Source: Spirochaeta thermophila DSM 6192 (lineage in GTDB: Bacteria; Spirochaetota; Spirochaetia; Winmispirales; Winmispiraceae). Taken from it: a stretch of DNA of 64,000 bases. Position 1 is the first letter of the stretch. Every line of letters begins with the position of its first letter. The notes beneath the pieces are model-generated. The model was not told the DNA's origin. It was given only the letters and a program-made list of their open reading frames with translations, and made no database searches. A program made the translations under genes and the position numbers. Shown here piece by piece: positions 43,056-48,846 of the stretch. The stretch covers positions 1,443,501 through 1,507,500 of the forward strand of contig NC_014484.1 of the NCBI RefSeq assembly GCF_000147075.1. Direction: 5' to 3'.

Positions 43056-44810
43056 TCATTTGAGGTAGAGCGGACGAGGGGTGTAGTGGGTGTGGAGGTA
43101 CTTGTGGGCCTTCTCGCTGAGGGGCTTCTCGAGGAACTCCTCATACAGCTGCTTGATGGCAGGGTTCTGGTGCGAACACCGGTACACCGACCGCTCGTCG
43201 TCGGTGTAGATACCTGCAGCCCGCTTGGCCCTGATCTCGTCCGTGGCGCCGTAGGGCTGACCGCCGCCCCCCACGCACCCGCCGCGACACGCCATCACCT
43301 CGATGAAGTGATAGGGAGGCTCCTTGCCCTCTTTCAGGGCCTGCTTCACCCTATCGAGCACATACTGGACGTTGGAGATGGAGTGGGCCACCGCGATCCG
43401 CACCTGCGTACCATCGATATCCAGAGTGGCCTCCTTCACACCGTCGAGCCCTCTTATGGGAGTGTACTCCACCTTCTCCATCTCCTTGCCGGTGACGAAG
43501 TAGTAGGCGGTACGAACGGCTGCCTCCATCACACCGCCGGTGACGCCGAAGATGGTACCGGCACCGGTGTACATCCCCAACGGCTGATCTGCCTCCTCGT
43601 CCGGAAGGTTGTGGAAGTCGATACCCGCCGACTTGATCATACGGGCGAGCTCCCGGGTGGTGATGGAGGCGTCCTGATCCTTGTAGCCCGAGGAGTACAT
43701 GTTCTCGTCGCGCTCGATCTCGTACTTCTTACTCGTACAGGGCATCACCGAGACCATGAAGATCTTCGACGGATCGATCCCCTTCTTCTGGGCATAGTAG
43801 GTCTTCACCATGGCCGCGAGCATCATCTGCGGCGACTTGGCCGAAGAGAAGTGGGGGATCATCTCCGGGTAGTACTTTTCGAGATAGTCCACCCACGAGG
43901 GACAACAGGTGGTGATGAGGGGAATGGGGCCCTTGCCGTGGGCGAACCGCTCCACGAACTCGCTCGCCTCCTCCATGATGGTGAGATCGGCTCCGAAATT
44001 GGTGTCGAAGATCGCATCAAAGCCGAGTCGCCTGAGGGCGGCATAGGTCTTCCCCGTGAGCAGGGTGCCGGGTTCGTAGCCGAAGGCCTCACCGATCGCC
44101 ACGCGCACCGCAGGGGCGATCTGCACCACGGTGTGGATCTCGGGATCCATGATGGCCTCCCACACCCTGCGGGTGTCGTCCTTCTCGTAGATGGCCCCGA
44201 CGGGACAGTGGGCCGAGCACTGGCCGCACTTGATGCACGGGCTGTCGTTGAGGGCGATGTCGCCCGCCGGCGCGATGCGGGTACCGTCGCCCCTTCCGAG
44301 AAACTCGAGGGCCCACACGTTCTGCATGCCCTGACAGACATTCACACACCTTCCGCACTTCACACACTTAGAGGGATCGAGCACAAGGGAGGGAGTGGAA
44401 GTGTCCTTGGGGAGCTCTACGATGTTCTTCTCGTAGGGCTGCTCCCGCACACCGAACTCGGCGGCAAGCCGCTGGAGCTCGCAGTTCTGATTCCTGGGAC
44501 AGTAGAGACAGTCGTCGGGATGGGTGGAGAGGATGAGCTCGATCACGGTCTTTCGCACCTGGACGATCTCAGGATCGTGGGTGATCACCTCCATCCCATC
44601 CTCGAGCGGTGTGGCGCAGGCCCTGAGCATCTTGGGGCTTCCCGCCACCTTCACCACACAGATACCACACGCACCCCACGCGGGGAGATCGGGGTGGTGG
44701 CAGAGGGTGGGAATCTTCACCTGCATCTTCTTCGCCGCATCGAGAATGCTCGTCCCCTCGGGCACTTCCACCTTTATGCCGTTTATCGTAGCCGTTATCG
44801 TCTTCATCAT
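43056..44810 (-). CDS. hndD: [FeFe]-hydrogenase catalytic subunit (HydA/HndD)
   Basis: A 584-residue subunit that makes or uses H2. The order is an N-terminal [2Fe-2S] domain (CHHPDLPAWGACGIC), a His-ligated [4Fe-4S] site (HPDDCLYCPRNQNC), and two [4Fe-4S] motifs (CVKCGRCVNVC, CIKCGQCSAHC). The H-cluster motifs are TTCCPSW, MPCTSKKYE and MACRGGCVGGGG, all complete. L1 reads TTCCPSW where TSCCPxW is usual. With the NuoF- and NuoE-like subunits it forms an NAD/ferredoxin electron-bifurcating enzyme. It is the last gene of the operon. The start may be the first or second ATG (44810 or 44807). Confidence 0.95.
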   Translation of the reverse strand: MMKTITATINGIKVEVPEGTSILDAAKKMQVKIPTLCHHPDLPAWGACGICVVKVAGSPKMLRACATPLEDGMEVITHDPEIVQVRKTVIELILSTHPDDCLYCPRNQNCELQRLAAEFGVREQPYEKNIVELPKDTSTPSLVLDPSKCVKCGRCVNVCQGMQNVWALEFLGRGDGTRIAPAGDIALNDSPCIKCGQCSAHCPVGAIYEKDDTRRVWEAIMDPEIHTVVQIAPAVRVAIGEAFGYEPGTLLTGKTYAALRRLGFDAIFDTNFGADLTIMEEASEFVERFAHGKGPIPLITTCCPSWVDYLEKYYPEMIPHFSSAKSPQMMLAAMVKTYYAQKKGIDPSKIFMVSVMPCTSKKYEIERDENMYSSGYKDQDASITTRELARMIKSAGIDFHNLPDEEADQPLGMYTGAGTIFGVTGGVMEAAVRTAYYFVTGKEMEKVEYTPIRGLDGVKEATLDIDGTQVRIAVAHSISNVQYVLDRVKQALKEGKEPPYHFIEVMACRGGCVGGGGQPYGATDEIRAKRAAGIYTDDERSVYRCSHQNPAIKQLYEEFLEKPLSEKAHKYLHTHYTPRPLYLK

Positions 44811-44817
44811 GGCCCCC

Positions 44818-46605
44818 TTAGCGTTTCTCTATGGCGTTGAACTTACAGGCCTCGTAACAGGCACCGCACTTGATACACTTGTCCTGATCGATGACGTGGG
44901 GCTGTTTCCGTTCCCCGGTTATGGCGTTCACCGGACATCTCCGGGCGCACACGCCACAGCCTATACACTTGTCGGGAAGTATGGTGTAGGTGACCAGCTC
45001 CACACACTTGCCGGTGGGGCACCGCTTCTCCACGATGTGTGCCCGGTACTCATCCTCGAAGTAGTGGAGGGTGGAGAGTACGGGGTTGGGAGCGGTCTGT
45101 CCCAATCCGCAGAGCGAGGCACGCTTCATGGCGTGGGAGATTTCCTTGATCTTGTCTATGTCCTCGAGCGTGCCCTTGCCCTTCGAGATCCGGTCGAGGA
45201 TGTTGTAGAGCTTCCTTCCGCCCACCCGACACGGGGCACACTTGCCGCACGACTCGTCCACCGTGAAGCCGAGGTAGAACTTGGCCACGTTCACCATACA
45301 GTCGTCTTCATCCATCACGATCATACCACCCGAACCCATGATGGAGCCGAGCTTCTGGAGGTTCTCGTAGTCGATGGGCGTGTCGAGGTACTCCTCGGGG
45401 ATCACACCGCCCGAGGGACCACCGGTCTGCACGGCCTTGAACTTCTTGCCGTTGGGGATGCCGCCGCCTATGTTGAAGACGATGTCCCTCAGGGTGGTGC
45501 CCATGGGGACCTCCACGAGCCCCGAGTTGTTCACCTTGCCGGTGAGGGCGAAGACCTTGGTGCCTTTGGATGTCTCAGTACCGATCTTCGCGAACCAGTC
45601 GCCACCCCGCAGGATGATCACCGGGATGTTCGCGAGGGTCTCCACGTTGTTGATCACGGTGGGCTTTCCCCACAGCCCCTTCACCGCAGGGAAGGGCGGC
45701 CTGGGTCGGGGGGTACCCCTGGAACCCTCGATCGATGCGAGGAGGGCGGTCTCCTCGCCGCAGACGAAGGCACCTGCCCCGAGCCTGATCTCGATGTCGA
45801 ACGAGAACCCGCTCCCCAGGATGTCCTCTCCAAGGAGTCCGAGCTCTCTCGCCTGCTCGATGGCGATGTTGAGCCTGCGGATGGCGAGGGGGTACTCGGC
45901 ACGGACATAGATGTAGCCCTTGTGAGCCCCCACGGTCTTACCTGCGATGATCATCGCCTCGAGTACGGAGTGCGGGTCACCCTCGAGCACGCTTCTGTCC
46001 ATGTAGGCGCCGGGGTCCCCCTCGTCCGCGTTACAGACCACGTACTTCATATCAGATTCCACCTGCTTGGTGAAGAGCCACTTCCGCCAGGTGGGGAACC
46101 CCGCTCCTCCACGTCCCCTGAGCCCGGACCTCTTGAGCTCTTCTATCACCTCATCGGGGCTCATCTCGAGGAGCACCTTCTCCAGGGCCGCATACCCATC
46201 GCGGGCGATGTACTCGTTGATATCCTCGGGGTTGATGAACCCACAGTTCCTCAGGACCACACGGAACTGTTTCTGATAGAAGTCGATATCGTCGACCCGC
46301 GCGAATTCCTTGCTCTGGTCCTTGTTGTAGAGGAGCCGGGTGACCGGCCGCCCCTTTATGAGGTGCTCCTTGACGATCTCCTCCGCATCCTCCGGCTTCA
46401 CCTGGACGTAGAAGGACTCCTCGGGGAGCACCTTCACGATCGGCCCCTGCTCGCAGAACCCGAAGCATCCTGTCTTGACGACCTGGACATCGGACGAAAT
46501 CCCCTCTTTCTCGAGGAGCCCGAGAAGGTTCCGGTACACCTGGTCGGACTTGTTCGACTCACACCCGGTACCGCCACATATGAGCACGTACTGCTTGTAT
46601 GCCAT
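44818..46605 (-). CDS. hndC: NuoF-like flavoprotein subunit of the hydrogenase (HndC/HydB)
   Basis: A 595-residue subunit that oxidises or reduces NAD(H) through FMN. The N-terminal thioredoxin-like [2Fe-2S] domain has GGTGCESN and TGCFGFCEQGP. The flavin/NAD domain has GLRGRGGAGFPTWRKW. The [4Fe-4S] site is SCGKCAPCRVG, and the C-terminal ferredoxin has CIGCGVCARRCPVNAI and CIKCGACYEACKFNAI. This order is diagnostic for bifurcating hydrogenases. It is seven bases ahead of hndD. Confidence 0.94.
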   Translation of the reverse strand: MAYKQYVLICGGTGCESNKSDQVYRNLLGLLEKEGISSDVQVVKTGCFGFCEQGPIVKVLPEESFYVQVKPEDAEEIVKEHLIKGRPVTRLLYNKDQSKEFARVDDIDFYQKQFRVVLRNCGFINPEDINEYIARDGYAALEKVLLEMSPDEVIEELKRSGLRGRGGAGFPTWRKWLFTKQVESDMKYVVCNADEGDPGAYMDRSVLEGDPHSVLEAMIIAGKTVGAHKGYIYVRAEYPLAIRRLNIAIEQARELGLLGEDILGSGFSFDIEIRLGAGAFVCGEETALLASIEGSRGTPRPRPPFPAVKGLWGKPTVINNVETLANIPVIILRGGDWFAKIGTETSKGTKVFALTGKVNNSGLVEVPMGTTLRDIVFNIGGGIPNGKKFKAVQTGGPSGGVIPEEYLDTPIDYENLQKLGSIMGSGGMIVMDEDDCMVNVAKFYLGFTVDESCGKCAPCRVGGRKLYNILDRISKGKGTLEDIDKIKEISHAMKRASLCGLGQTAPNPVLSTLHYFEDEYRAHIVEKRCPTGKCVELVTYTILPDKCIGCGVCARRCPVNAITGERKQPHVIDQDKCIKCGACYEACKFNAIEKR

Positions 46606-46614
46606 GCGTCCCTC

Positions 46615-47013
46615 CTATTCCTCTTTGCTCACGATATCAGCCGCGGGTCTGTCGTAGACGTGATTCTCCACCAGTTTCCCGCCGAGGATGTGGTCCTCCA
46701 CGATGCGTCGCGCCACATCAGGGGTGACCTTACCGTAGATCACACGCGGCATGCCGGGCATGATCACCTCCACGGTGGGCTCGGCATAATCGAGTCCGAA
46801 GCCCCCTACCTGACGAACCGCCACGTTGGTGAGCCCCTTCTCCTCGATGATCCTCAAGAAGGCATCGAGCGTCTCCTTGGCCCCTGCAGCGATTCCGCTG
46901 GTTCCCATACCGACCACGATGTGGATCTCCTTGTTGTCGGGATCCCGCATCTCAAGGAGCCGCTTCTTCTCTTCCCGAAGCTTCCTGAGCTGTTCCAGCG
47001 TCATCTTTCCCAT
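46615..47013 (-). CDS. HndB-like subunit lacking all Fe-S cysteines
   Basis: A 132-residue protein matching the thioredoxin-like [2Fe-2S] HndB subunit in length, fold and position. The usual cysteines are replaced: VVGMGTSGIAAGAKE has Ser for Cys, and VGGFGLDYAEPTVEV has Gly and Asp where the family has Cys. The whole protein has no cysteine, so it cannot hold the cluster. ATG 47013 has AAGGAG at six bases. It overlaps the ATPase gene upstream by 62 bases. Its role is probably structural or regulatory. Confidence 0.8.
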   Translation of the reverse strand: MGKMTLEQLRKLREEKKRLLEMRDPDNKEIHIVVGMGTSGIAAGAKETLDAFLRIIEEKGLTNVAVRQVGGFGLDYAEPTVEVIMPGMPRVIYGKVTPDVARRIVEDHILGGKLVENHVYDRPAADIVSKEE

Positions 47014-47575
47014 AGACATCTCCTTCACGTGAAGCGTTGAGGCACGAGTCTTCGAGCTCGTGCACAAACCTGTCCAGGAGAAGGGCATGCGATGCATCCC
47101 AGAAGTCCCCGAGCTCTTCCAAGAGCTCCTTCCTCGAGAGGGTGTAGCCACCTCCCTCACCCCGTCTCTCCACCACCAGCTCGTAGTCCCCATCAAACGA
47201 GAGGGCCTGCCGCCACGTGGAGGCCAGGTCCCCCATCGGAGGCGTATCCACATGATCGAGCGGCATGGTGAAGCGCACCACCGTGCCCCTGCCCGGCTCA
47301 CTCTCCAGGGAGAGCCCGCCTCCGACCAGGTCGACCGCCTGCTTGAGGAAGGCGAGCCCCAATCCCAGGCGCCTGGCGGGATGCTTCCGCCCATCGGTGA
47401 AGAAGGGGTCGAGGGCCCTCTCCTTCTCTTCAGGCGTCATGCCTTTCCCGTCGTCCCTCACCTCCACCGTACACCACCCTTCTCCAGTATGGAGTGAGAC
47501 TTCTATCGTACGCGCTCCGGCCTCGAGAGCGTTCTGCACGAGCTCCAGAATGAAGTCGGAGAGCGTACGATGCAT
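46952..47575 (-). CDS. GHKL-type ATP-binding protein in the hydrogenase operon
   Basis: A 207-residue protein with a histidine-kinase-like ATPase fold: N box ELVQNALEAGA, G1 DDGKGM, G2 GLGLAFL, then GRGTVVRFTMP. There is no His-phosphotransfer domain, membrane segment or sensor domain. The last 70 or so residues are acidic/charged and share DNA with the HndB-like gene. Such small ATPases recur inside [FeFe]-hydrogenase operons of anaerobes; their partner is unknown, and the cassette at 48.9-51.2 kb is a candidate. Confidence 0.78.
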   Translation of the reverse strand: MHRTLSDFILELVQNALEAGARTIEVSLHTGEGWCTVEVRDDGKGMTPEEKERALDPFFTDGRKHPARRLGLGLAFLKQAVDLVGGGLSLESEPGRGTVVRFTMPLDHVDTPPMGDLASTWRQALSFDGDYELVVERRGEGGGYTLSRKELLEELGDFWDASHALLLDRFVHELEDSCLNASREGDVYGKDDAGTAQEASGREEAAP

Positions 47576-47579
47576 GGTG

Positions 47580-48062
47580 TTATCCCTGCTCCCTGTACTT
47601 GGCGAGGATACCCGGAAGATCGTCCTTCGTGACCTTGCCGTACACCTCGCCGTCCACCATCACAACCGGGGCGAGGCCGCAGCACCCGAGGCACCGGACC
47701 GCCTCGAACGAGAAGAGTCCATCCTCGGTCGCGGTGTTCGGCCCCACGCCCAAAAGGTCCTCCAGCTCCTTGAGGATGTCCTCGCCTCCCTTGAGGAAGC
47801 AGGCGGTCCCCATACACACCGAGATCCGGTGCTTCCCGGGCTTGCGGAGCTTGAAGAAGTGGTAGAACGTGATCACGCCGTAGATCTTCGCGAGTGGCAC
47901 ATCGATCACCTTGGCGAGCTCCATGGCGATCTCCCGGGGGATGTACCCGTAGATCTCCTGCGTTTTGTGGAGCACCATGATGAGATTTCCAGGCTTCTCC
48001 TTCCATTGCTCGATGAAGGCCATGAGTTCCGGATGGAGCGTCACCTCTGCTGTCTGAGCCAT
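47580..48062 (-). CDS. hndA: NuoE-like [2Fe-2S] subunit of the hydrogenase (HndA/HydC)
   Basis: A 160-residue thioredoxin-like subunit with all four cluster ligands (CMGTACFLKGG and RCLGCCGLAP). The N-terminal helical part (PGNLIMVLHKTQEIYGYIPREIAMELAK) is typical of NuoE. It is the first gene of the operon. ATG 48062 has AGGAGG upstream. Confidence 0.93.
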   Translation of the reverse strand: MAQTAEVTLHPELMAFIEQWKEKPGNLIMVLHKTQEIYGYIPREIAMELAKVIDVPLAKIYGVITFYHFFKLRKPGKHRISVCMGTACFLKGGEDILKELEDLLGVGPNTATEDGLFSFEAVRCLGCCGLAPVVMVDGEVYGKVTKDDLPGILAKYREQG

Positions 48063-48120: not shown

Positions 48121-48183
48121 TAGTCTTTTCTTTATTTCTGAAATATGCTAGTATAAATTCCCGTGGAATCTTTTAACGAGAAG

Positions 48184-48846
48184 ATGATCACAAAAAACAC
48201 TATAACGAGAGCGTCGCGGTATCTCAGGGTTCTCAAGAACCTCAGGTCACTGGGGTTCGTGAGGGTCTATTCCCCGAATCTTGCCGATGCACTCGGCCTC
48301 ACTCCCGCCGTGGTCCGCAAAGATTTCTCCCTCCTGGGAATGGAAGGGCGGAAGAAGGGTGGATACCTCATCGATGAACTCATAGAGCACCTGGAACACC
48401 TGCTGGGCGCTAATAACCCCTGCAAAACCGTGGTGGTAGGATGCGGAAGAATAGGTCGGGCACTCATCGAGTCTCAGGAGCTCCGCCGTGAGGGCATCCA
48501 GATAGTGGCTGGCTTCGACATAGCTCCCCCGCCCCCAGAAGAGCAGGGTGAGGTCCCCATCCTTCCCATGGATGAGTTTGAGTCCATCGTTGACAAAGAG
48601 GGAATAAGGGTGGGCATCCTGGCCGTGCCCTCGCACGCAGCGCTCGAGGTGTTCGAACGCATGCGAGCCGCGGGTATACGCGGCTTCCTCAACTTCACCA
48701 CGGTGGAGCTCAAGTGCCAGGAACGTTGCCCCCACGGCTGTGAAAACCGGTGCGTCATCCACCAGGTGAATATCGGGCTCGAACTCGAAACCCTCTTCCA
48801 CATGGTGCACATCACCGAGCAGCGACCGGAGTTGCTCAAGGAGTGA
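48184..48846 (+). CDS. rex: Redox-sensing transcriptional repressor Rex
   Basis: A 220-residue Rex: an N-terminal winged helix (TRASRYLRVLKNLRSLGFVRVYSPNLADALGLTPAVVRKDFSLLG) and a Rossmann NAD(H) domain with VVVGCGRIGRALI. Rex senses the NADH/NAD ratio and represses fermentation and hydrogenase genes, which fits its divergent position. The C-terminal part has CQERCPHGCENRCVIHQVN, unusually cysteine-rich with four Cys in 14 residues, possibly a metal or redox site. ATG 48184 fits the family. GTG 48163 would add seven residues. Confidence 0.9.
   Translation: MITKNTITRASRYLRVLKNLRSLGFVRVYSPNLADALGLTPAVVRKDFSLLGMEGRKKGGYLIDELIEHLEHLLGANNPCKTVVVGCGRIGRALIESQELRREGIQIVAGFDIAPPPPEEQGEVPILPMDEFESIVDKEGIRVGILAVPSHAALEVFERMRAAGIRGFLNFTTVELKCQERCPHGCENRCVIHQVNIGLELETLFHMVHITEQRPELLKE

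Follow-up and report, generated by a model that had tools for sequence, protein, structure and literature searches.

The locus analyzed here raises the question of how a subunit that resembles iron-sulfur proteins can hold its place in a hydrogenase operon when it contains no cysteine at all. The gene in question, hndB, lies in the window, by which we mean the entire 64,000-nucleotide stretch of Spirochaeta thermophila DSM 6192 DNA that was analyzed. It occupies the third place in an intact operon with the order NuoE-HATPase-HndB-NuoF-[FeFe] hydrogenase. The hndD product scores 825.5 bits against the NCBIfam model FeFe_hydrog_A6 (cut-off, 765), and NuoE- and NuoF-like partners are present. By sequence, the operon belongs to the group A6 NADH-dependent electron-bifurcating [FeFe] hydrogenases, with bifurcation being predicted. 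The source genome encodes five [FeFe]-hydrogenase-type catalytic domains, one alone of which belongs to the hndB operon. The features of the locus are as follows.

43056 to 44810, minus strand: hndD (hydA type), [FeFe] hydrogenase catalytic subunit, NCBIfam group A6
44818 to 46605, minus strand: hndC (NuoF; hydB type), flavin subunit, N-terminal thioredoxin domain with C10, C15, C47, and C51
46615 to 47013, minus strand: hndB (hydD type), cysteine-free thioredoxin-like subunit of 132 amino acids
46783 to 46785, minus strand: codon of Ala77; in the SSD/SGD type (sites 39, 71, and 75) this fourth position is invariably Ala, and three-cysteine relatives mostly have V, S, or N there
46789 to 46791, minus strand: codon GAT of Asp75, which replaces the third conserved cysteine
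46801 to 46803, minus strand: codon GGC of Gly71, which replaces the second conserved cysteine
46897 to 46899, minus strand: codon AGC of Ser39, which replaces the first conserved cysteine
46952 to 47575, minus strand: HATPase (histidine-kinase-like ATPase; hydE type), overlapping the start of hndB by 62 nucleotides
47020 to 47025, minus strand: AAGGAG ribosome-binding site of hndB, read from the sequence
47580 to 48062, minus strand: hndA (NuoE; hydC type), [2Fe-2S] subunit, ligands intact
48163 to 48846, plus strand: Rex-family redox-sensing repressor, upstream of and divergent from the operon

The HATPase and hndB frames share the 62 nucleotides from 46952 to 47013, which suggests translational coupling.

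The preliminary description had reported an HndB-like subunit without any cysteine, next to a NuoF-like protein whose thioredoxin domain keeps its own. Both statements were confirmed: the 132-residue translation has no cysteine and contains both of the motifs quoted, VGMGTSGIAAGA and GGFGLDYAEPTVEV, and the NuoF domain has the four residues listed above. Taken alone, the lack of cysteine across 132 residues is not unusual. What goes beyond chance in the aligned sequences is that positions 39, 71, and 75, which are cysteine in most relatives, have all been replaced, and alike across a whole clade. Most relatives carry the motif GT[C]GIAAGA ... TG[C]xGL[C]xxEP, where the window protein has S39, G71, and D75. 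This motif lies outside the published definition of HndB/HydD, and the window protein agrees with that family in length and homology, in gene position between HATPase and NuoF, and in its thioredoxin-like ferredoxin fold. Like its nearest three-cysteine relatives, to which it is 59 to 67% identical over the full length, it is free-standing and of about 130 amino acids. None of the four cysteine ligands that define the cluster-bearing thioredoxin-like [2Fe-2S] ferredoxins is present, and the Pfam model 2Fe-2S_thioredx gave no match to the window protein. It was also conceivable that the real HndB lies elsewhere, but no second HndB/HydD-type subunit was found in the genome (2,472,645 bp, one contig), where the only other match was the N-terminal domain of the neighboring NuoF.

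Comparison with known enzymes places the subunit more precisely. In the tetrameric bifurcating hydrogenase Hnd of Solidesulfovibrio (Desulfovibrio) fructosivorans, HndB is the fourth, small subunit; it probably has no redox center, and the [2Fe-2S] subunit is HndA (PMC10084766). The preliminary description had given the latter role to HndB, and in this it was mistaken; moreover, the cysteines conserved among the relatives number three and not four, the usual first ligand being already Gly. The S. fructosivorans protein is likened to the window HndB by description, not by sequence, and the three-cysteine motif of most sampled relatives is absent from the window protein. The hydA-hydE cluster of Acetobacterium woodii has a gene set that matches the window operon (NuoE-like HydC, histidine-kinase ATPase-like HydE, the small HydD, NuoF-like HydB, and the [FeFe] subunit HydA), and its HydD, likened to the window HndB by gene set and description and not by sequence, is predicted to lack a cofactor (PMC3315566). 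Since trimeric HydABC enzymes exist without an HndB-type subunit (PMC6288185), the core reaction does not require HndB.

The cysteine state was compared among 196 distinct relatives, drawn from samples of three phyla. The three cysteines were present together in 166 and absent together in 30, and no protein carried one or two; the fetched sequences were mostly the better-scoring matches, and the counts of 166 and 30 are not unbiased frequencies. In the sample from the window's own phylum, 75 relatives had all three cysteines, 22 had none, and none was partial. The phylum sample of an Oscillospiraceae genome (G393) had three cysteines in 49 of 49 relatives, and that of Desulfobotulus (G394) had three in 42 of 50, none in 8 of 50, and no partial set. 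The whole ligand set thus tends to go together, and a missing motif should not be taken to mean a missing subunit. A scan of the genomes of the window's phylum gave matches in 195 of 393. A pattern scan of named genomes yielded at least 60 stretches, which were picked for the D75 motif and give no frequency. No HndB relative was found on viral contigs.

At least four distinct cysteine-free motifs exist. At sites 39, 71, and 75, the types read S, S/G, D (the window type); S, E, S/A; S, S, P, with S, A, D and A, A, A; R, L, G; and T, D, E. Residue Ala77 shifts jointly with these three sites. This diversity bears on the idea that a cysteine-free HndB still binds a metal or an altered cluster, with Ser39, Asp75, and the adjoining His/Tyr76 forming a non-cysteine redox or regulatory site. 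The replacements of the window type are indeed polar, and two groups that lie apart on the tree of the partner proteins converge on them (S, S/G, D). However, the second site is Gly in the window protein and in two further loci (L153 and L157), and the other types, with E/S, E/A, S/P, A/A, or R/L/G, have no ligand set in common. We therefore consider such a site highly improbable. A caution applies nonetheless: because Ser and Asp ligate iron in some proteins, and structures of the C55S and C59S forms of the Aquifex ferredoxin have been solved, the absence of cysteine does not by itself prove the absence of metal.

The preliminary description spoke of ligands that had been replaced, which would be at odds with a branch that never possessed them. 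Because three cysteines are the rule in the other sampled phyla and in NfnB and StnB, the cysteine-free state is derived, which argues against such a branch, and the distribution of sequences indicates that three cysteines are the ancestral state. On the tree of the partner proteins NuoF, NuoE, and HydA, cysteine-bearing and cysteine-free relatives are interleaved, with at least six changes of HndB cysteine state, all six of them forced by well-supported branches. The partner proteins rejected the hypothesis that the SSD/SGD type arose once (AU p 1.35e-5). In contrast, the HndB alignment, which is short and from which the trait columns had been removed, did not reject a single origin (p 0.65; p 0.06 in a second run) and rejected the partner topology, so that parallel loss is not fully distinguishable from an exchange of hndB among operons. 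At site 71, the window group uses the codons AGY (Ser) or GGN (Gly), and seven of seven members of the second group use TCN (Ser), a difference that favors independent substitutions there. Convergent, parallel loss is likely, with hndB transfer between operons as the remaining alternative. What is new in this sequence comparison is a recurrent, concerted, and partly convergent dismantling of the three-cysteine site with the subunit retained.

One operon in this set, that of Desulfobotulus alkaliphilus (L132, NZ_VLLC01000027.1), clusters with spirochaete operons that share its cysteine-free type, a placement suggesting that the operon was transferred between phyla. Several cysteine-free carriers among L132 to L190, a sample picked by motif, are haloalkaliphiles by name (Alkalispirochaeta alkalica and Desulfobotulus alkaliphilus) or bear isolate codes that presumably denote soda-lake samples, and an ecological link is possible.

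A subunit that has lost its ligands might be a decaying relic whose function is gone and whose gene is drifting, as decay would begin with the loss of all ligands at once. This is contradicted by the constraint on the gene. Among computable pairs, dN/dS for HndB was 0.04 to 0.12 between cysteine-free copies and 0.03 to 0.12 between three-cysteine copies; the cysteine-free hndB copies are under purifying selection, and the HATPase is under weaker constraint than HndB. Identity across genera is 85%, with the start, ribosome site, and gene order conserved. We give the relic explanation next to no credence. In both HndB groups, NuoE, NuoF, and HydA retain nearly all of their cysteine ligands, and most loci show the same gene order; some loci, again in both groups, lack the HATPase. 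Covariation of the partner proteins with HndB state yielded three weak positions, none convincing, and did not locate a docking site.

These observations support the earlier proposal that the subunit has been kept and likely has a non-redox role; assembly and gating, the forms of it suggested there, are candidates. This role, likely from the sequence comparisons, stands close to the published view, in which HndB/HydD probably has no redox center.

The predicted model of HndB (pLDDT 80) shows a thioredoxin-like ferredoxin fold extended by an additional helix at the N terminus. In structure it best matches the NfnB N-terminal domain and the [2Fe-2S] ferredoxins of Aquifex and Azotobacter (Z, ~16). 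With A. aeolicus Fd (1m2a) and A. vinelandii FeSI (5abr) the fold is shared at 1.1 to 1.9 Å over some 91 to 94 residues, and the four ligand positions are without cysteine in the window protein. The closest sequences are the N-terminal thioredoxin-like domains of NfnB and StnB (9n5u, 9bov, and 8oh5), which are also the best match in sequence and fold combined (T. sibiricus NfnB, 40% identity; Z, ~15 to 16). In contrast to the free-standing, cysteine-free window HndB, these domains are fused to a flavin subunit and keep all three cysteines in the motif GxxSCGIAAG ... GCxGxCxxEP.

This likeness bears on what the three cysteines do where they are kept. It may be that HndB bears no redox cluster in any lineage and that the cysteines form a disulfide, a zinc site, or another structural site, their loss being a neutral swap of structural solutions. 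Such a view accords with the published accounts of S. fructosivorans HndB and A. woodii HydD, which state no redox center or cofactor site (PMC10084766; PMC3315566), and with the conservation of three cysteines only, where the first of the usual four ligands is already Gly; repeated loss would also come easily if nothing redox hung on the site. On the other hand, Cys71 and Cys75 of three-cysteine HndB align with the ferredoxin ligands Cys55 and Cys59, and the closest homologue, the StnB N-terminal domain, has the same three-cysteine pattern in a subunit reported to carry one [2Fe2S] cluster (B2) near FMN (PMC10482914), a cluster assigned to that domain by analogy with HydB. We regard a purely structural site as rather unlikely. 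The StnB cluster near FMN makes cluster binding by three-cysteine HndB plausible, not proven; the published view is that there is no cluster.

The reading that we favor, and hold to be probable, is that the window protein is an HndB/HydD accessory subunit of an NAD-dependent electron-bifurcating [FeFe] hydrogenase in which the three-cysteine site has been dismantled, leaving a cluster-free structural or gating subunit. HndB has kept its thioredoxin-like ferredoxin fold while the three-cysteine site was removed as one unit (C39S, C71S/G, C75D, and x77A), changes that would leave it unable to hold an ordinary Fe-S cluster. Devoid of a cluster, it would pack as a structural subunit against the NuoF/NuoE core and may aid assembly, or hold or gate mobile parts around the flavin. 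In three-cysteine relatives the site, where present, would not be part of the essential electron path, and lineages could drop it for that reason.

More tentatively, with the balance tipped slightly against it, HndB in most lineages may hold an Fe-S cluster on its three cysteines, away from the essential electron path, for which bacteria repeatedly and convergently swapped in one cluster-free design (S39, S/G71, D75, and A77) while keeping the subunit. If this were true, the cluster would be a dispensable tuning or gating element, removed many times with its surroundings intact. Closely related operons whose main differences lie at four positions of HndB, nearly all other ligands being intact, amount to a natural experiment on whether the HndB site takes part in bifurcation, tuning, or gating.

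Other arrangements of cysteine-free HndB were also observed. In L298, L300, L301, and L302 (G1038, G1079, G970, and G994), HndB of the S/E/A type occurs in operons that carry a pair of NuoE genes and a pair of NuoF genes. At these loci the first NuoF is short (~526 amino acids), and the cysteines of its N-terminal thioredoxin domain are also lost (NHILISIDAGTLMAGARAVE...LETGSLGI), giving a hydrogenase with a second, cluster-poor NuoF. In L110, L112, L113, and L120, S/E/S HndB occurs in NuoE-HATPase-HndB-NuoF operons that no hydrogenase catalytic subunit adjoins.
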